This document shows positions 4,992 to 24,330 of a stretch of 24,330 nucleotides of DNA, one piece after another. Made by a program: the position numbers and the translations under genes. How positions within the stretch are numbered: the stretch's first letter is position 1; the number at the start of each line of letters is the position of its first letter. The stretch spans positions 1 to 24,330 of the IMG/VR virus record IMGVR_UViG_3300030339_002067, one strand, 5' to 3'. Source of the stretch: a virus. Under the pieces are notes generated by a model. The model worked only from the letters and a program-made list of their open reading frames with translations, was not told the DNA's origin and made no database searches.

Positions 4992-6396
4992 GGCTCCGAA
5001 AAAACGCCTGGGGATAAGCCTCGACGTATCCACCCAGGATGTCGCCAAGCTCTTTGGCGTGCCAGCCGAGCAAGCCATTGCCGCCTGGGAAAAGCGCATC
5101 TTGCCCAACAAGCCCAGCCCCGGCGATGTGGCAAAGGCGGCAAAGGGCATTCCCAACCCCAAGATCCCCTGGAAGTCTTCCGACGTCCTTTGGCATGGGC
5201 ATAGCCGCGCCTTCTTCGTCGCCCGCATGACGCGGGCCGACATCTTGGCCGACATCCACAAGGAGGTCGATCGGGCAATCCGCGAAGGCCGCACCTTTGA
5301 GCAGTTTCGGCGCACCCTGGAACCCACCTTGCGAGCCAAGGGATGGTGGTCGGGGGACGAGCCGGACCAGAAGTCTTTGGTGCGCAATCCCCAGACCGGC
5401 CAGGATGAGTGGACACGCCTGGGAACGCCGCGTCGCCTCAAGACCATCTACCAGACCAACAAGGCCGTCTCCTACGATGCCGGCCACTACAAGACCATGG
5501 ATGACCTGGCGGACTTGCTGCCCTACCAGCAGTACCACGTACTTGACCATGGGAAGAATCGACGCGCCGCCCATCAAGCCTTGGATGGGCGCATCTTCCG
5601 AGCAGACGACCCAGCGCTGTCAAGCATCCGCCCTCGCAATGGCTGGGGGTGTGAGTGCCGCATGAACAGCATCACCGAACGCAAGGCGCGCCGTCAAGGG
5701 GAACTTCCGGAAAAATCCACCCTCGTCACCAAGATGGCTCGCGTAGGGCGCGACGGACCGGAGGTGCAGATCCAAGGGATCGACCTGGGAGGAGGCAAGA
5801 GCTTTTACCCCGATCCGGGTTGGGCTTACGATGTTTCCCGCAATGCCCGCGCCGTAGAGGATCTGGCCTGGAGGAAGATCTCGGCGCTGCCTGAACCGGC
5901 GCAAAAGACATTCGTCAATTCGATTGCAAAGGATACCGGGCTATTCAATAGCCGCGCATCGCAATGGAATACTTGGACCCAAGGCATCAAGGCAAGCGAA
6001 ATCGCAAAAGGCGAAAGCGTTGCGATTGGATGGATAGATCATCCGCTCCTATCCAAGGTCACCAAAGCCGCAGGGAAATCGATATCGCCCGTCGTCGTTA
6101 CCGATGATAATGCCATCAAGCACGCCTTGCGCCCAACCAAGTCAAGCGTCCAAGCTTTGACGCTTGAGCAAGTTCAAGAGATCCCCGCCATATTGGCGGC
6201 ACCATACCGTGCCGTTTGGGATGGCGACAACTTGATCATTTACAGTCCTGCGCGCGCGTCAGCAAAAGGGCTTTCAAAGCGTGTCAATGCTCATACCAAA
6301 CTGGTGTTCAAGCGCGATGCATCTGGGAACATGACCCTGGTGACCGCAAGCGAAGTCGAGGCAAGCGCCTTGAGTACAGTCGGGACGACCCTATGA
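4984..6396 (+). CDS. gpF-like minor head protein fused to a PBECR-like nuclease domain
   Basis: A 470-residue protein. The start at ATG 4984 overlaps the portal stop. Residues about 1-260 are a Mu gpF/gp30-type head morphogenesis protein: internal RMTRADILADIHKEVDRAI, then YQQYHVLDHGKNRRAAHQAL, DGRIFRADDPAL and NGWGCECRMNSI, the usual His/Gly/Cys signature of the family. From about residue 300 the sequence changes (from 5880 on the DNA is visibly more A+T-rich). It then contains VVVTDDNAIKHAL, IPAILAAPYRAVW and a KLVFKRDASGNMTLVTASEV strand pair. That order matches the phage Barnase-EndoU-ColicinE5/RelE-like (PBECR) RNase-fold domains known at the C-termini of gpF-type proteins. Injection with DNA and action in the new host is the accepted idea for such polyvalent proteins; catalytic residues were not verified here. 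Confidence 0.82.
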   Translation: MPEAPKKRLGISLDVSTQDVAKLFGVPAEQAIAAWEKRILPNKPSPGDVAKAAKGIPNPKIPWKSSDVLWHGHSRAFFVARMTRADILADIHKEVDRAIREGRTFEQFRRTLEPTLRAKGWWSGDEPDQKSLVRNPQTGQDEWTRLGTPRRLKTIYQTNKAVSYDAGHYKTMDDLADLLPYQQYHVLDHGKNRRAAHQALDGRIFRADDPALSSIRPRNGWGCECRMNSITERKARRQGELPEKSTLVTKMARVGRDGPEVQIQGIDLGGGKSFYPDPGWAYDVSRNARAVEDLAWRKISALPEPAQKTFVNSIAKDTGLFNSRASQWNTWTQGIKASEIAKGESVAIGWIDHPLLSKVTKAAGKSISPVVVTDDNAIKHALRPTKSSVQALTLEQVQEIPAILAAPYRAVWDGDNLIIYSPARASAKGLSKRVNAHTKLVFKRDASGNMTLVTASEVEASALSTVGTTL

Positions 6397-6551
6397 AGGA
6401 GGTTGGAATGCTCCTCGGTCGGTGCGCTAGGTTCCGACTCCCACCTGTATGCTCCGGTTTCCCGGAGGGACAGTCCTACGTGCGTCTCGATTTAGGCTTC
6501 GAGGAGATTCCTTCCAGAAGATACGCCCCTTACAGCTGGAGCGCAACATGA
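6393..6551 (+). CDS. 52-residue ORF coupled to gpF and gpG
   Basis: A small ORF starting with ATGA overlap at the gpF stop (6393-6396) and ending with ATGA overlap at the gpG start (6548-6551). It exactly bridges the gap between the two genes. A GGAGG run sits just inside its start. The product begins MKEVGMLLGRCARFRLPPVC and ends with SRRYAPYSWSAT. It has no signal peptide or membrane segment, two cysteines and many Pro/Arg/Tyr residues. I do not recognise it. Mu itself has no gene here. Because it follows directly on a toxin-like nuclease domain, an immunity or chaperone role is conceivable, but this is context only. Confidence 0.55.
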   Translation: MKEVGMLLGRCARFRLPPVCSGFPEGQSYVRLDLGFEEIPSRRYAPYSWSAT

Positions 6552-8273: not shown

Positions 8274-8282
8274 ACACAAGGA

Positions 8283-8303
8283 GGGCCGGTGGTTCACCGG
8301 CCC
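8283..8303 (+). terminator. GC-rich hairpin after the methylase gene
   Basis: GGGCCGGTG (8283-8291) and CACCGGCCC (8295-8303) form a 9-bp stem with a 3-base loop ten bases past the methylase stop. The following TTGAATGCTCTTTG is only modestly T-rich, so it may be a weak terminator or an RNA-stabilising hairpin. Confidence 0.5.
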
Positions 8304-8330
8304 TTGAATGCTCTTTGAAAGGATTAGGAA

Positions 8331-8648
8331 ATGTTCGAATTCTACAGCATGTGCATCATCGCGATCATTGGAGCAACCACTGTCGGAGTGGTTTGGATTG
8401 TCATGCGCGCCTTGCTGATTGCCGATGCGACAGATGGCATCGCTATGCGCCGCGCACTCCTGATGGCACACCATGAACTGACCACCTTGAGTGGCCTGCA
8501 AGCCTTCGACGCCGAAGATCCGAAGGATGTCTTCACCATCGACGCCTCGCAAACCCTCGCAGTCATCCGAAAAGCTATTGGCCCAATCACATCTGCCGAT
8601 ACCTGTACACCGCCCTATTGGGGGCACAATCGAAAGGACAGAGCATGA
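8331..8648 (+). CDS. Small membrane protein, unknown
   Basis: A 105-residue protein preceded by a purine-rich AGGATTAGGAA. Residues about 5-30 (YSMCIIAIIGATTVGVVWIV and onward) are a strong transmembrane helix. The remainder is soluble, with an ELTTLSGLQAF helix and an acidic stretch. No family is recognised. It is followed by an ATGA-overlapping 66-residue gene, so the two form a pair between the methylase and the minus-strand accessory genes. Confidence 0.65.
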   Translation: MFEFYSMCIIAIIGATTVGVVWIVMRALLIADATDGIAMRRALLMAHHELTTLSGLQAFDAEDPKDVFTIDASQTLAVIRKAIGPITSADTCTPPYWGHNRKDRA

Positions 8649-8845
8649 CCGGAGAACAATATCGCGCAGAGCAAGAGGCCATCGCCAAGGCCACTTCAAG
8701 CATCCTGGAGGCCGTCGATGGGCTCTCGGTGCGGCTGGCTAAGGAAGCTTTGCAGGAATCCCTTCACAGGATCACCTGCGTGTGCGAAGAGGCACCCGTC
8801 AGCCAAACGATTTGCTTGGAGAAGATGCCCTTCTACATCCTTTGA
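8645..8845 (+). CDS. 66-residue helical protein, unknown
   Basis: The start at 8645 overlaps the previous stop (ATGA). The protein (MTGEQYRAEQEAIAKATSSI at its start) is largely helical by appearance, with two cysteines in ITCVCEEAP and a hydrophobic C-terminus. No domain is recognised. Its stop (8843-8845) directly abuts the stop of the convergent minus-strand gene, forming TGATCA. Confidence 0.6.
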   Translation: MTGEQYRAEQEAIAKATSSILEAVDGLSVRLAKEALQESLHRITCVCEEAPVSQTICLEKMPFYIL

Positions 8846-9058
8846 TCAGGAAACGAATAGGAGGGTGCGCTGTTTGCTCCCTCCGATGATGTACTCGATC
8901 CTCTTGATCGTGTACGAACCGTGAGCCGTTCCATTGAACGTCACCTTGCCACCTATGGTGAAAGGGCCGTAGGGCGTTGAGGCGCTCAAGACTGGGCCGG
9001 TACCAGGTTCGACTCCAGGCTGGATCACTTCTAGGTCATAGGTCAGCGGATTTGCCAT
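8846..9058 (-). CDS. Small beta-rich accessory protein A
   Basis: A 70-residue protein (MANPLTYDLEVIQPGVEPGT at its start) with alternating hydrophobic residues suggestive of a small beta barrel: PFTIGGKVTFNG, GSYTIKRIEYIIGG, RTLLFVS. It appears distantly related to the next minus-strand product at 9347-9589. Both have 'M-A-x-TY-LE', a central 'F-x-[IV]-G-x', a 'Y-x-[IV]-x-x-[IV]-E' strand and a 'T-x-L-[LF]-V' end. It is the last of three genes downstream of the repressor and carries leader copy 1 just before it. An SD-like AAAGGAAA lies upstream of the ATG. Function unknown; the position suggests expression in the lysogen. Confidence 0.65.
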   Translation of the reverse strand: MANPLTYDLEVIQPGVEPGTGPVLSASTPYGPFTIGGKVTFNGTAHGSYTIKRIEYIIGGSKQRTLLFVS

Positions 9059-9074: not shown

Positions 9075-9130
9075 CGGGTTTTGGTTCCGGGATGCGCTCC
9101 CGGCAGGCGTCAGCCTCTGCTGAAATCGAT
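9075..9130 (-). ncRNA. Structured leader element, copy 1
   Basis: Read on the minus strand, the leader has hairpin I TCAGC-AGAG-GCTGA (complement of 9110-9123). Hairpin II follows, CCGGGA-GCGCA-TCCCGG (complement of 9087-9103), then AACCAAAACCCG and the start codon of the gene at 9058. Two further copies precede the genes at 9589 and 9993. Hairpin II keeps its pairing by compensatory changes between copies. There is no T-run after it, so it is not a simple terminator. Confidence 0.6.
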
Positions 9131-9198
9131 GTGAACGACATTGCCAGTACGAGATATCACACAGCAGCCCCACTGAGGCTCAATCGAAAGGTCATAAC

Positions 9199-9378
9199 AT
9201 GGAATCGAAAATTGATCCAGCCCTCGCCATCATTGAAAGCCTCCAAGGCTACTGCGTCAGAGATGCGATTGGAGTACTGGAAGACGCGAAGCGATACATT
9301 CTAGGATTCTCCAAAGTCGATATCACCGATGATGTGAGGCATTCTTTTACGATTCCGCCTGCACAAGCAAACGAGTAG
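9199..9378 (+). CDS. 59-residue plus-strand ORF inside the accessory block
   Basis: ATG 9199 follows AAAGGTC at a fair SD distance and runs to TAG 9376-9378. The predicted protein starts MESKIDPALAIIESLQGY and has a 'DPALAIIESLxGYxVxDAIxVLEDAKRYI' pattern of two amphipathic helices, a style common in small phage proteins. It is the only plus-strand gene in this stretch and its end overlaps the end of the minus-strand gene at 9347-9589 by 32 bases. Its upstream region is the antisense of a conserved minus-strand reading frame, so one of the two may be spurious. Function unknown. Confidence 0.4.
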   Translation: MESKIDPALAIIESLQGYCVRDAIGVLEDAKRYILGFSKVDITDDVRHSFTIPPAQANE

Positions 9379-9589
9379 TGATAATACCTCCTTGTTGATT
9401 CATTAACGTCTCCACCGACAGCACAACGAAATAGCCATTTCGCTTTGCATTCATCGAGTGCGTGAGACATATACGCTCACCAACTTTGAATTCTTTGATG
9501 GGGTGGTCAGAGATCCCGAATTGAGGAACGACGCAACCATCGCCATCTTGGTGATCTAGCCAAATCTCAAGTTTATAGGTGATCGCCAT
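9347..9589 (-). CDS. Small beta-rich accessory protein B
   Basis: An 80-residue protein (MAITYKLEIWLDHQDGDGCV at its start) with predicted beta strands (EFKVGERICLTHS, GYFVVLSVETL, ITTRLLVQ), looking like a small SH3-like or OB-like barrel. It is a probable distant paralog of the 8846-9058 product. GAGGAGGATGAG before the ATG is a strong SD. It carries leader copy 2 immediately upstream. No family is recognised. The gap of about 290 bases to the next minus-strand gene holds leader copy 1 and the 59-residue plus-strand ORF. Confidence 0.68.
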   Translation of the reverse strand: MAITYKLEIWLDHQDGDGCVVPQFGISDHPIKEFKVGERICLTHSMNAKRNGYFVVLSVETLMNQQGGIITTRLLVQAES

Positions 9590-9605
9590 CTCATCCTCCT
9601 CTTCA

Positions 9606-9658
9606 CGGGTTTTGGTTCCAGGTCACGCACCTGGCGGCGTCAGCCTTTGCTGAAATCG
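9606..9658 (-). ncRNA. Structured leader element, copy 2
   Basis: On the minus strand: hairpin I TCAGC-AAAG-GCTGA (complement of 9640-9653) and hairpin II CCAGGT-GCGTG-ACCTGG (complement of 9618-9634), then AACCAAAACCCG. Relative to copy 1, hairpin II differs at two paired positions (G-C to A-T, and A-T to T-A) with pairing intact, which is covariation. It lies between the stop of the 9670-9993 gene and the start at 9589. Confidence 0.62.
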
Positions 9659-9669
9659 TTTCCAGGGGA

Positions 9670-9993
9670 TCATGCAATCTTGCGGATCGCAGCCCCTTGC
9701 GATGTGGTAGCTATGAACCAGCATTCGTCATCCGGCTCAAGGTGCGCTCTAATTTCTTCCGCAAGCTGATCCGCATTGATCCCGCGCTCATTGAGATCAA
9801 CAACAAAGCTTTCTTCTCCCAATCCACAGAATGACTCATCGCCCAAGGCGCGACGGTTCTTGAGCCTGGACTCAAGTTGCTCGGGCGCGAAGTCTTCGGT
9901 TGTGCGCTGCGTTTCAAAGAACACCACGACCAAGCCCTCACGAAGGATATGCCAAGAATTGTCTTCGATGATCTCAAGGATCGATGCAAACAT
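9670..9993 (-). CDS. 107-residue acidic accessory protein, unknown
   Basis: A 107-residue protein starting MFASILEIIEDNSWHILREG. It is rich in Glu/Asp and looks alpha/beta: EGLVVVFFETQR strand, QLESRLKNRRALG helix, ESFVVDLNERG strand, LAEEIRAHLEPDDECWFIAT helix-strand. It appears globular and cytoplasmic, with no membrane segment. It is the first gene after the repressor on the same strand and has leader copy 3 directly before it. AGAAGAAAGA serves as a weak SD. Position between repressor and phage accessory genes suggests lysogenic expression, for example superinfection exclusion or host modification, but no family was recognised. Confidence 0.68.
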   Translation of the reverse strand: MFASILEIIEDNSWHILREGLVVVFFETQRTTEDFAPEQLESRLKNRRALGDESFCGLGEESFVVDLNERGINADQLAEEIRAHLEPDDECWFIATTSQGAAIRKIA

Positions 9994-10010
9994 GCGGGAT
10001 CTTTCTTCTG

Positions 10011-10065
10011 CGGGTTTGTAATCCGGGATAGCCCCCGGTAAGCGTCAGCCTCTGCTGAAATCGAT
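10011..10065 (-). ncRNA. Structured leader element, copy 3
   Basis: On the minus strand: hairpin I TCAGC-AGAG-GCTGA (complement of 10045-10058) and hairpin II CCGGG-GGCTAT-CCCGG (complement of 10023-10038, extendable by a G-U pair), then ATTACAAACCCG and the start at 9993. Conservation with copy 1 extends further upstream, to about 10087, where both copies are open in the same frame (see findings). The repressor stop lies just upstream. Confidence 0.58.
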
Positions 10066-10091
10066 GTGAACGATGTTGCCAGTGCGGGCGA

Positions 10092-10592
10092 TTACCTCGG
10101 GCCGTCTGTGCCGGTCTGCGGCTCGGACTCCAAACCCTCCGATCCATGATCGCAACGCGATTTCGCCATAGCGTTCATGAGCACTGCGGCAGCACGGGCC
10201 ACCTCATTGAAGAGCAAGGCAAGCTGTTGTGGAGATGGCTGCGTTTTGCCATTCATCCAGTCTCGTACTTGCTTCGGCGTCGCATCGACATCTGCTGCGA
10301 CATCATCAGGCGCACCAAGGACCTTGAAGGCATCGCGCAGGCGGAGGGGAGGGAGAGTGTCGGATGAACTCCGTACAGCACTGCAATCACCGTCGTCCGC
10401 CTCTCCTGCAAGAAAGGCTATGGTGGTTCCGCATTCTTGCGCGACGACTTGCAGGAAGTCAACGGTAGGGCTGTACGCTCCTCGCAAATAATTGTTCAGC
10501 GTCGCCGGAGATACGCCCGCTTTCTCTCCAATTTCTTTTTGCGTTTTTTCGGACGCTTTGATAACAGCCCGCAGGCGCTCTGAGAATTTCAT
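10092..10592 (-). CDS. Phage repressor with two helix-turn-helix domains
   Basis: A 166-residue DNA-binding protein. Residues about 5-60 form an XRE/HTH_3 domain (KTQKEIGEKAGVSPATLNNY is the recognition region). After a linker, residues about 84-130 look like a second helix-turn-helix: DAFKVLGAPDDVAADVDATP then KQVRDWMNGKTQPSPQQLAL. A tail without recognisable domain follows. It is divergent from a Cro/Ner-like gene with an operator region between them, the standard lysogeny switch of a temperate phage. An AGAGGA motif precedes the ATG at 10590-10592. No peptidase domain is present, so LexA-type self-cleavage is unlikely. The last residues overlap, in another frame, a short conserved reading frame that ends at leader copy 3. 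Confidence 0.82.
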   Translation of the reverse strand: MKFSERLRAVIKASEKTQKEIGEKAGVSPATLNNYLRGAYSPTVDFLQVVAQECGTTIAFLAGEADDGDCSAVRSSSDTLPPLRLRDAFKVLGAPDDVAADVDATPKQVRDWMNGKTQPSPQQLALLFNEVARAAAVLMNAMAKSRCDHGSEGLESEPQTGTDGPR

Positions 10593-10687
10593 GAAATTCC
10601 TCTTGCATCGCTAAATATCTGGCGCTAACTTGTTGGAAGTAGCAGGAGCTACTACACCAAGCCAAAGCCTAGCAAAAGGAGCAATCA
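10593..10687. promoter_or_regulatory. Lysogeny-switch operator/promoter region
   Basis: The 95 bases between repressor and Cro/Ner-like gene contain the dyad AGTAGC-AGGA-GCTACT (10638-10653). It lies between a -35-like TTGTTG (10630-10635) and a poor -10-like TACACC (10653-10658) for the plus-strand operon, a spot where a bound repressor would block polymerase. A direct repeat CGCTAA occurs nearer the repressor gene. AAAGGAGC just before 10688 is the SD of the first early gene. Confidence 0.55.
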
Positions 10688-21968: not shown

Positions 21969-22381
21969 TGAACGCCAAACACATCCCCTCAATCCTTGCC
22001 CCCAAGCACACTGGAATGATGGTTGAAGGTCTCCGAGTCCTGCGCCGGAGCTTCGCTGGTTCCCACTTCATGCGGAAGGAGATGGCTGATCATCTGGAGG
22101 AAGTTGCCCGCAGGTTCTACGCAGGGAAAGTGTCAATCGTCGATGAGTTCCTCCAGCTGTACCGGATTGGTACAAAGCATCGAGATGACCGCGTCCAGCT
22201 GGAGCAAGACGGTGGCGTCGAAACCGAGTGGGATGCCATGAACGAAGCGATCATCCATGCTCGCAACTACATCGAAAGTGATCGCAAGGAAAAGCGGGAA
22301 TGGAAAGGGTGGACCCTGGACGAATTCGACGCTGCCTGCGAGCGCCTCGATAAAATCCGCGCAGAAAGAACGAAGGCATGA
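21968..22381 (+). CDS. 137-residue helical protein, unknown
   Basis: Starts at ATG 21968 sharing a base with the preceding TGA. It is helical and charged, with RKEMADHLEEVARRFYAGKV and EWDAMNEAIIHARNYIESDR. No motif recognised. ATGA overlap with the zinc ribbon gene at 22378. Confidence 0.6.
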   Translation: MNAKHIPSILAPKHTGMMVEGLRVLRRSFAGSHFMRKEMADHLEEVARRFYAGKVSIVDEFLQLYRIGTKHRDDRVQLEQDGGVETEWDAMNEAIIHARNYIESDRKEKREWKGWTLDEFDAACERLDKIRAERTKA

Positions 22382-22554
22382 GCCGCCGCGCACCGATCTG
22401 CAAGCGATGCAGGACGCGACCGGCTACGGGGCCGGACAGGGAGCGCGACCTGGTATGGCGACTCACCATCTGCGACGAGTGCCGAATGGGCTACATGGTC
22501 GCTGATGTGGCAAGCATCCTGGATCACGCCAAGATCAAGAAGGATGTGGAATGA
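22378..22554 (+). CDS. Small zinc-ribbon protein
   Basis: A 58-residue protein with CKRC (residues 8-11) and CDEC (residues 32-35), which make one treble/zinc-ribbon-type metal site. A helical tail (VADVASILDHAKIKKDVE) follows. ATGA overlaps at both ends (22378 and 22551). Such proteins in phage early operons often bind DNA or RNA polymerase; no specific partner is visible. Confidence 0.62.
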   Translation: MSRRAPICKRCRTRPATGPDRERDLVWRLTICDECRMGYMVADVASILDHAKIKKDVE

Positions 22555-23032: not shown

Positions 23033-23435
23033 TTCCTGGGGCGGCTGTCGCGGCGTTTTCTTCCCCCTCCTGGGGCATCCGTACCACCCACATGTACCAT
23101 CCCGTTGTACGGCCTTCTGTGCCAGACGGTCGACGTCTGAAAATTTCCGACTCAGGCGCGGCAAGCGCGGCAAAGTTCTGTCTCACGAGCGCGGCATGAC
23201 TTTCGTGTGAAATGGCCTGGAACGCCGATCAAATGGGGATTCTAGGCCATTTCACAATATCTACCGTGGATTGCTCGTGAACGGCCAAATGAGACAGACC
23301 CCTACGCGCTTTTCCGCTTTTGCGTTGGCATGAAATTTCTTTGGTCGCTTCATTGAGACGAAGAAACCTAGCATTCATGCGGGTTTGTGGCCGATTTGGA
23401 GCGGCTTGCTTTGTCTCATCCTTTCCGCTTTTGCA
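23033..23435. repeat. Right end of the prophage with putative transposase sites
   Basis: This stretch has no convincing gene. TTTCCGCTTTTGC occurs at 23311-23323 and, as the terminal element, at 23422-23434 next to the CA end. Read inward, it is a GCAAAAGCGGAAA box, similar in style to Mu end sites. The word TGAGAC(A/G) or its complement appears at 23179-23185, 23290-23296, 23354-23360 and 23412-23418. GCGCGGCAA is tandem at 23156-23173 with a third GCGCGGCA at 23189-23196. The arrangement fits several subterminal transposase-binding sites as in Mu right ends. Confidence 0.65.
23206..23256. repeat. 13-bp inverted repeat near the phage end
   Basis: TGTGAAATGGCCT (23206-23218) and AGGCCATTTCACA (23244-23256) are exact complements separated by 25 bases, inside the gene-free terminal region. 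It may be a binding site for a phage protein acting at the end or an imperfect transcription signal; there is no T-run behind it. Confidence 0.6.
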
Positions 23436-23440
23436 TATCC
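23436..23440. other. Predicted 5-bp target duplication
   Basis: TATCC directly follows the terminal CA at 23434-23435. Mu-type elements duplicate 5 bp of target, so this should reappear beyond the left end. It cannot be confirmed in this window. Confidence 0.35.
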
Positions 23441-23691
23441 TGCCGGTAGATCCAGCCATTCTGCTTTCCGATTCCCGTGACTTGTAGCCTCTGAGCTCGG
23501 CGCCCTTCCATGGAGGATGGTGCTGTGGAAAGGGTGCCGTTCGGGGCCGGAGTTCCCCAGGAATTGACCCACCAGCTAGGCGATGCGCTGCTTCCGTCTT
23601 CGAAACCTGGATTTGAGAGGCGTTCGATAGCTGCGCTGGAAGTGGCTGCGAGGATTACGGACAACCCAAGAACGCATTGAAATCTGCACAT
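23436..23691 (-). pseudogene. Host secreted CBM-like protein, cut by the prophage
   Basis: The reading frame starts at ATG 23689-23691, with GGAGG eight bases upstream. It encodes an N-terminal signal peptide (MCRFQCVLGLSVILAATSSA, residues 1-20) followed by an IERLSNPGFEDGSSASPSWW block, the typical start of CBM4/9-like carbohydrate-binding domains. The protein continues to WIYRQDM and there meets phage DNA; a stop follows 15 bases into the phage (23416-23418). Only about 85 residues of the host protein remain. The 3' part should lie beyond the phage left end. It is the second gene after the AraC-like regulator, on the same strand. Confidence 0.72.
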
Positions 23692-23742
23692 TGCCACTCC
23701 TCCGTTCATTTGGGGGAATGTCGCGAATCGTGGGGGGACTGT

Positions 23743-24330
23743 TCAGTTGATTTCGTTCGGATCCTTGTCGCTTTCGCCCGTTTGCAGGTTCTGCACAGGA
23801 TTTGACGGATTCTGCAAAGCCGCCCGCAGGGCGCCAGGTGCGGTTTCGAATCGTTCGCGGAACACACGGTTGAAGTGGCTGACGTTGCCGTACCCCACCT
23901 TGAAGGCGATCTCCGAGACCTGGAGGTCCGTTTCCAACAATAGGCGTCGTGCTTCCTGCAGGCGCAGGCGGTTGAGGGTTGCCTTGAAGCTCTCTCCGTT
24001 GCCGTTGAGCAGATTGGTGATGCGGCGAAGTGGCAAGGCCAGCTCGGTGGCCACGGTTGCCAGATCGAGGTCCTCACGGCAATAGTTGTCGGCCAGGAAA
24101 TGGTTCAGCCGTTCCAGGTCCGGTGGCGGGGTGACTAAGGAACGCGGCTCCAAGGGTGTGATGGCAGGATGCGTGGCGGCTGCTTCGGGTGCAGTTCGAG
24201 GGCGGGGCAGGAACGCAAGGATGAGGCCTCCCAGCAGGCCGAGGCAAGATAGGACGGCAAGGAGCGGTACGTTGGTGCCTGACTTGTGCTCAATTGAGGC
24301 GATCTCTATGGTGTCGTCCACGCCGACCAT
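23743..24330 (-). CDS. AraC-family regulator with membrane segment (3' part)
   Basis: The frame is open from the window edge to the stop at 23743-23745; the ATG at 24328-24330 may be internal, so it is treated as partial. A membrane helix (VPLLAVLSCLGLLGGLILAF, about residues 21-40) is followed by a Pro-rich linker. An AraC/HTH_18 domain comes next (about residues 75-175: LDLATVATELALPLRRITNL, then LLETDLQVSEIAFKVGYGNV and FNRVFRERFETAPGALRAAL). The second recognition block is a good match. Such membrane-tethered AraC proteins often belong to sensory systems with a periplasmic N-terminal part. It precedes a secreted carbohydrate-binding protein, which suggests control of polysaccharide use, an inference. 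Confidence 0.8.
   Translation of the reverse strand: MVGVDDTIEIASIEHKSGTNVPLLAVLSCLGLLGGLILAFLPRPRTAPEAAATHPAITPLEPRSLVTPPPDLERLNHFLADNYCREDLDLATVATELALPLRRITNLLNGNGESFKATLNRLRLQEARRLLLETDLQVSEIAFKVGYGNVSHFNRVFRERFETAPGALRAALQNPSNPVQNLQTGESDKDPNEIN

Follow-up and report, generated by a model that had tools for sequence, protein, structure and literature searches.

A module of 55–56 nt that folds in silico into two hairpins is present in three copies on the minus strand of a Mu-like transposable prophage, with each copy ending upstream of one small accessory gene. The module is a real repeated gene-start element for which there is modest evidence of selection on RNA structure, and its function is inferred. 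The DNA analysed (the window) is a stretch of 24,330 nt from IMG/VR record IMGVR_UViG_3300030339_002067, which comprises most of the prophage, and the host is a Fibrobacterota bacterium.

The assignment to the Mu-like phages comes from the presence of a MuA-like transposase (Pfam Mu-transpos_C, 9e-6), a B-type ATPase, GemA, DUF3164, an XRE repressor and Mu-like structural genes, with domain matches in the window to AAA_22, GemA and DUF3164. Prophages of Fibrobacter show a gene order identical to that of the window, one such relative (L087) being located within a Fibrobacter genome, and the AraC-type gene adjoining the right prophage end has relatives in the Fibrobacterota (44% identity over 175 aa in a search within that phylum). 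Two exact TTTCCGCTTTTGC repeats lie on the right side of the prophage (23311–23323 and 23422–23434) and are likely to be transposase end-binding sites, with host sequence seeming to begin directly after the second. On the host side (23416–24330, minus strand) are the AraC-type regulator and a small ORF that looks secreted; the frame of this ORF runs up to the prophage end and was possibly interrupted by the insertion. Two additional IMG/VR contigs are of the same phage and identical in sequence. The nearest other relative, and the sole near one among the transposase and portal relatives, is L006, with a transposase 57% identical; a transposase scan of the genome collection gave no match. The XRE-type repressor (10092..10592, minus strand; HTH_3, 2e-14, and PHROG repressor families) shares the strand of the modules and lies upstream of them.

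Copy 1 of the module (10011..10065) precedes gene E (9670..9993), copy 2 (9606..9660) precedes gene D (9347..9589) and copy 3 (9075..9130) precedes gene C (8846..9058), all on the minus strand. The three copies can be aligned with one another at approximately 76–85% identity and each, when folded alone, gives two hairpins of five and six pairs. They score 78, 79 and 86 bits respectively with a covariance model, R1, that was built from these same three copies, and the scores are therefore those of members of the model. Within the window the core TTTCAGCARAGGCTGACG is present at exactly three sites, each of them on the minus strand (9108–9125, 9638–9655 and 10043–10060), against an expectation of 0.03 in dinucleotide shuffles with up to three mismatches allowed. 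The initial annotation had described the same module before all three minus-strand genes (starts at 9058, 9589 and 9993), and both the repeat and the fold are borne out here. It had also described a ACCAAAACCCG-like single strand following the hairpins; copies 2 and 3 match ACCAAAACCCG exactly, while copy 1 has ATTACAAACCCG. Upstream likeness extends further in copies 1 and 3, as a 65-nt block of 85% identity that is lacking in copy 2. Two separate perfect dyads of such size were found in 0.7–1.4% of shuffles, depending on the copy. For sequences of this composition the fold energies are unexceptional (z of −0.6 to −1.2 against shuffles), and the evidence thus lies in repetition and covariation and not in stability.

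It is the second hairpin that carries the covariation. This hairpin lies at 10023..10038 in copy 1 (CCGGG[G]-GCTA-[T]CCCGG), at 9618..9634 in copy 2 (CCAGGT-GCGTG-ACCTGG) and at 9087..9103 in copy 3 (CCGGGA-GCGCA-TCCCGG), on the minus strand in each case, and is separated from the ATG by 29 nt for E, 28 for D and 28 for C, with a purine-rich ribosome-binding sequence following it. The six-pair stems are CCGGGG/UCCCGG with a closing G.U in copy 1, CCAGGU/ACCUGG in copy 2, which bears both compensatory changes, and CCGGGA/UCCCGG in copy 3. Both sides are thus changed in two of the six pairs, and one further position is a G.U, with 100% of the cells paired, as the initial annotation had reported in noting two base pairs that change together. 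Equal pairing was reached in 61 of 500 trials in which the 3′ letters were shuffled, and sliding the partner strand by one to three columns reduced pairing to 15–52%. Under random placement of the four stem changes that separate copies 2 and 3, the probability that all pairs survive is 0.005 when both stems are considered and 0.012, under the same substitution model, when placement is confined to helix 2. With three sequences and two varying pairs the covariation count is itself weak, so that the evidence is suggestive to good and a firm claim is out of reach. Symmetric stem changes can also be obtained via gene conversion or hairpin-templated repair. The matched differences nevertheless argue for a constraint on the fold, and suggest that a single hairpin 2 fold has been kept by selection. 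For the minus strand, terminator calling gave no intrinsic terminator (a GC-rich hairpin with a T-run) at the modules, in line with the earlier statement that hairpin 2 has no T-run after it.

The genes behind the modules are far less alike than the modules themselves. Gene E encodes an orphan of 107 aa (ATG at 9993), the in-frame codon score of which is the best of the six frames, gene D an orphan of 80 aa (ATG at 9589) and gene C an orphan of 70 aa (ATG at 9058) that is predicted, with low confidence, to be mostly beta strand. The proteins of C and D are remote paralogs of 22% identity (a value reached in 5 of 1000 shuffles), and E shows no relatedness to either. Leaders of 76–85% identity before genes of at most 22% indicate that the leaders are constrained or have been kept alike by recombination. 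An apparent C/D nucleotide identity of 81% was an artefact of gap-tolerant global alignment and was not used.

The order on the minus strand is repressor, E, D and C. No minus-strand terminator was found between the repressor and position 8304, and no convincing sigma-70 type promoter was found at the modules. A terminator-like hairpin with a 10-pair stem and a T-rich tail (8282..8306, minus strand; z about −3) lies before gene X, and this hairpin (8304–8282) probably represents the end of the minus-strand unit. The lack of a terminator before 8304, together with the lack of a convincing promoter, fits an intercistronic element. The modules had originally been described as leaders at a fixed place before three gene starts. 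The place is borne out, but with no promoter found they may, instead of being 5′ leaders, lie between cistrons within the repressor transcript.

The reading that we tentatively favour, as quite possible though short of probable, sees in the module a portable gene-start element, copied before three accessory genes in the repressor transcription unit. These genes, all small, lie downstream of the repressor; the prophage would have placed a module ahead of each, and the module would be transcribed within the minus-strand repressor unit. Hairpin 2 would then form in the mRNA immediately ahead of an unpaired stretch rich in A and C and of the Shine-Dalgarno region, where it would most likely insulate the ribosome-binding region from upstream RNA and translation and most likely also protect the downstream message, so that each accessory gene could be translated independently. 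Hairpin 1, in which the sequence and not the pairing is kept, would probably be a protein-bound site.

Hairpin 1 is found at 10045..10058 (TCAGC-AGAG-GCTGA, a dyad of five pairs), 9640..9653 (TCAGC-AAAG-GCTGA) and 9110..9123 (TCAGC-AGAG-GCTGA) in copies 1, 2 and 3 respectively, on the minus strand. Its stem is invariant across the three copies and the loop alone differs, and hairpin 1 therefore offers no covariation evidence. A conserved RNA shape, as initially proposed, thus holds for hairpin 2, where pairing is kept, but hairpin 1 has no compensatory changes and, instead of being an RNA element, may represent a dyad in the DNA or a coding remnant. A stretch frozen in sequence fits recognition by a protein, in RNA or in DNA. 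One alternative is that the phage repressor or the ner product binds hairpin 1 as a DNA operator, which would place the three genes in the immunity regulon and make of the module a regulatory DNA site joined to a transcribed hairpin 2. An operator-like dyad, AGTAGC-AGGA-GCTACT (10638..10653, no strand assigned), lies between the repressor and ner and is the sole dyad there with arms of at least five; its spacer and its AGC/GCT core (AGC-N4-GCT) match those of hairpin 1, and such a dyad arose in 190 of 20000 shuffles (approximately 1%) of the repressor–ner spacer. The contrast between the frozen sequence of hairpin 1 and the drift of hairpin 2, in which pairing is maintained, also agrees with an operator. 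However, the outer arm bases are unlike (TC..GA as against AGT..ACT), there are 13 AGC-N4-GCT sites in the window, mostly inside genes, and the match was noticed post hoc. Moreover, the modules have no promoter that could be found and the leaders of L006 have no such dyad. An operator at hairpin 1 therefore appears unlikely. It also seems distinctly unlikely that the modules form a prophage RNA regulon, in which one RNA-binding protein of the phage or host would recognise the sequence of hairpin 1, hairpin 2 serving as a structural spacer, and would so switch the translation of unrelated accessory genes together, the module acting as a plug-in start for recruiting genes on both strands.

Plus-strand genes interleave with those described above. 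Gene A (8645..8845, 66 aa) is convergent with C and abuts it, and gene B (9199..9378, 59 aa) is convergent with D and overlaps its end. The two ORFs have a common start leader, CAATCGAAAGG, also given as CAATCGAAAGGWCA, which at A (8623..8647) is 84% identical over 25 nt to its repeat at B (9177..9201), although no protein relationship between A and B could be detected. This leader may be a second portable gene-start element. With shared leaders at A and B and modules at C and D, the tandem unit looks like a convergent gene pair, and the duplication unit seems to be such a pair (A or B with C or D) of approximately 530–554 bp with a leader at each outer end. A duplicated cassette of three genes had initially been proposed; C and D are indeed distant paralogs, but E is unrelated, so that the three are not one family, and the convergent pair with leaders at both ends had been missed. 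This arrangement raises the alternative that the modules are relics: accessory genes would have been duplicated in tandem and recombination would have kept the modules alike, with the start sequences serving as homology for the swapping of gene bodies and the fold having no role. That leaders are common on both strands while the gene bodies differ, and that all searches beyond the phage were empty, would be expected of such a relic. Homogenisation would, however, erase and not preserve matched stem differences; two double changes with every pair intact are improbable by chance, and both hairpins and their spacing to the ATG have been kept exactly. A relic without a role for the fold is for these reasons an improbable explanation.

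A decidedly improbable one is that a short overlapping frame (...VIARTGNIVHIDFSRG*) lies behind the repressor, that the hairpin 1 stretch is its last part and was duplicated together with the leader, and that the dyad is incidental. Copies 1 and 3 can be read as VI[A/S]RTGN[I/V]VHIDFSRG* and copy 2 ends in DFSKG*, with the TGA lying inside hairpin 1, and five of the seven differences between copies 1 and 3 fall at third codon positions. In addition, the corresponding −1 frame after the repressor of L006 reads VVARKGNRIYVAPAP..., with 21 of 30 bases matching there. Against this, copy 1 has no standard start codon, the ATG in copy 2, overlapping with the stop codon of E, begins a different frame, and the codon score supports copy 1 weakly and copy 3 not at all. 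The differences from L006 are mostly at first positions, and a coding origin leaves hairpin 2 unexplained. A separate observation in this region is a GGGTTTG heptamer within the repressor (10131–10137, minus strand), which is in register for a −1 shift into the frame of 10045–10095 (...VIARTGNIVHIDFSRG*); no heptamer of this type was seen in L006 despite its similar −1 frame tail.

The distribution of the module was examined with R1 and with sequence patterns. The initial annotation had looked to a covariance-model search for further copies in phages and prophages, and an empty result is one half of what it had named as speaking against its reading; no copies were found outside this phage. R1 found none beyond the three in the window, in L006 or in approximately 80 portal-related loci, the other matches being in identical contigs of the same phage. 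In 168 Fibrobacterota genomes, a set that does not include the phage's own host genome, there were ten matches with E of 0.05 or less where approximately eight would be expected by chance. Exact-pattern scans of IMG/VR returned identical contigs of the same phage and chance matches alone, and degenerate patterns of either module half gave chance sites alone. One pattern match (L003) lay inside a gene of an unrelated phage and was rejected, as were 28 further IMG/VR candidates that failed fold and model checks. A search with the region's DNA in phages and plasmids gave nothing, and no match to the modules was found among 4227 Rfam models up to E = 1. The minus strand of L006 does carry two C-rich, unstructured leaders before its accessory genes (5733–5838 and 6372–6474), and these resemble each other weakly (1 of 500 shuffles). 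The absence of copies from every relative, L006 included, indicates that there is no deep conservation, and absence from every other virus or genome searched points to a local control element and not a widespread RNA family. Within the collections searched the module is a phage-private repeat.

Searches with the accessory proteins led to a similar picture. Gene C matches Pfam Big_7 at 0.003, below the family cut-off, and the structures predicted for C and E have low confidence (pLDDT of 58 and 54), with a PDB fold search being uninformative. Searches of IMG/VR with D and E gave matches solely in identical phages, C, D and E had no match in the phage collection, and a C/D profile found none in the 168 Fibrobacterota genomes. 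For E two weak matches (E of 0.001 and 0.009, in one genome) lie inside larger ORFs and there is no strong relative. PADLOC and NCBIfam gave nothing useful.

At present the module, carried by a phage from a phylum that has received little study, is well supported as a repeat, and the evidence for selection at the RNA level is modest. If the portable gene-start element is real in the sense favoured here, it would be a compact, self-contained start part that lets a temperate phage add genes behind its repressor with each expressed independently. It would also be a small example of a structured leader spreading in one genome before becoming a family.

Several known systems can be compared with the module. 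Intercistronic mRNA-stabilising stem-loops and REP/REPIN elements are, like the module, short hairpins between genes of one unit. The module differs from them in standing before gene starts at a fixed distance and in its three copies in one phage, and the chance-level matches of R1 in the 168 genomes of the host phylum indicate that it is not a dispersed host repeat of the REP/REPIN kind. Phage leaders with hairpins are already known in Mu mom and HK022 put. The put RNAs of HK022, of approximately 70 nt with two stem-loops, act on the polymerase without a protein, and their stem-loops are long, with bulges, a triplex and internal non-canonical pairs (PMC9378689). It is highly improbable that the module is a processive antitermination element of this kind that reloads polymerase before each gene: two hairpins, several copies in one phage and no T-run are shared with putL/putR, but the module is of 55–56 nt with simple stems of five and six pairs lacking the put bulges or triplex, it lies between genes and not behind early promoters, there is no terminator between the genes to read through, and R1 gave no convincing match in HK022 26000–34000 (best E 0.1 without filters), a stretch in which the put sites are unannotated and outside which they may lie.

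In the case of the Mu mom mRNA, the Com protein binds a hairpin that lies upstream of the start and acts in translation, and both the hairpin and its sequence are recognised (PMC6483171). The Com motif CC(N)2-3GAG in the loop is absent here, the hairpin 1 loops being AGAG, AAAG and AGAG closed by C-G; three genes are involved as against one in Mu, and the ribosome-binding site is not predicted to be covered by an inhibitory structure. Among the phage proteins scanned there was no Com family match to indicate a Com-type four-cysteine zinc finger. An ORF of 58 aa with two CxxC pairs (22378–22554, plus strand), which has no significant family match, lies near the right end, the position of com in Mu. 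The module resembles com/mom in belonging to a Mu-like phage and in placing a short hairpin ahead of the start of a gene.
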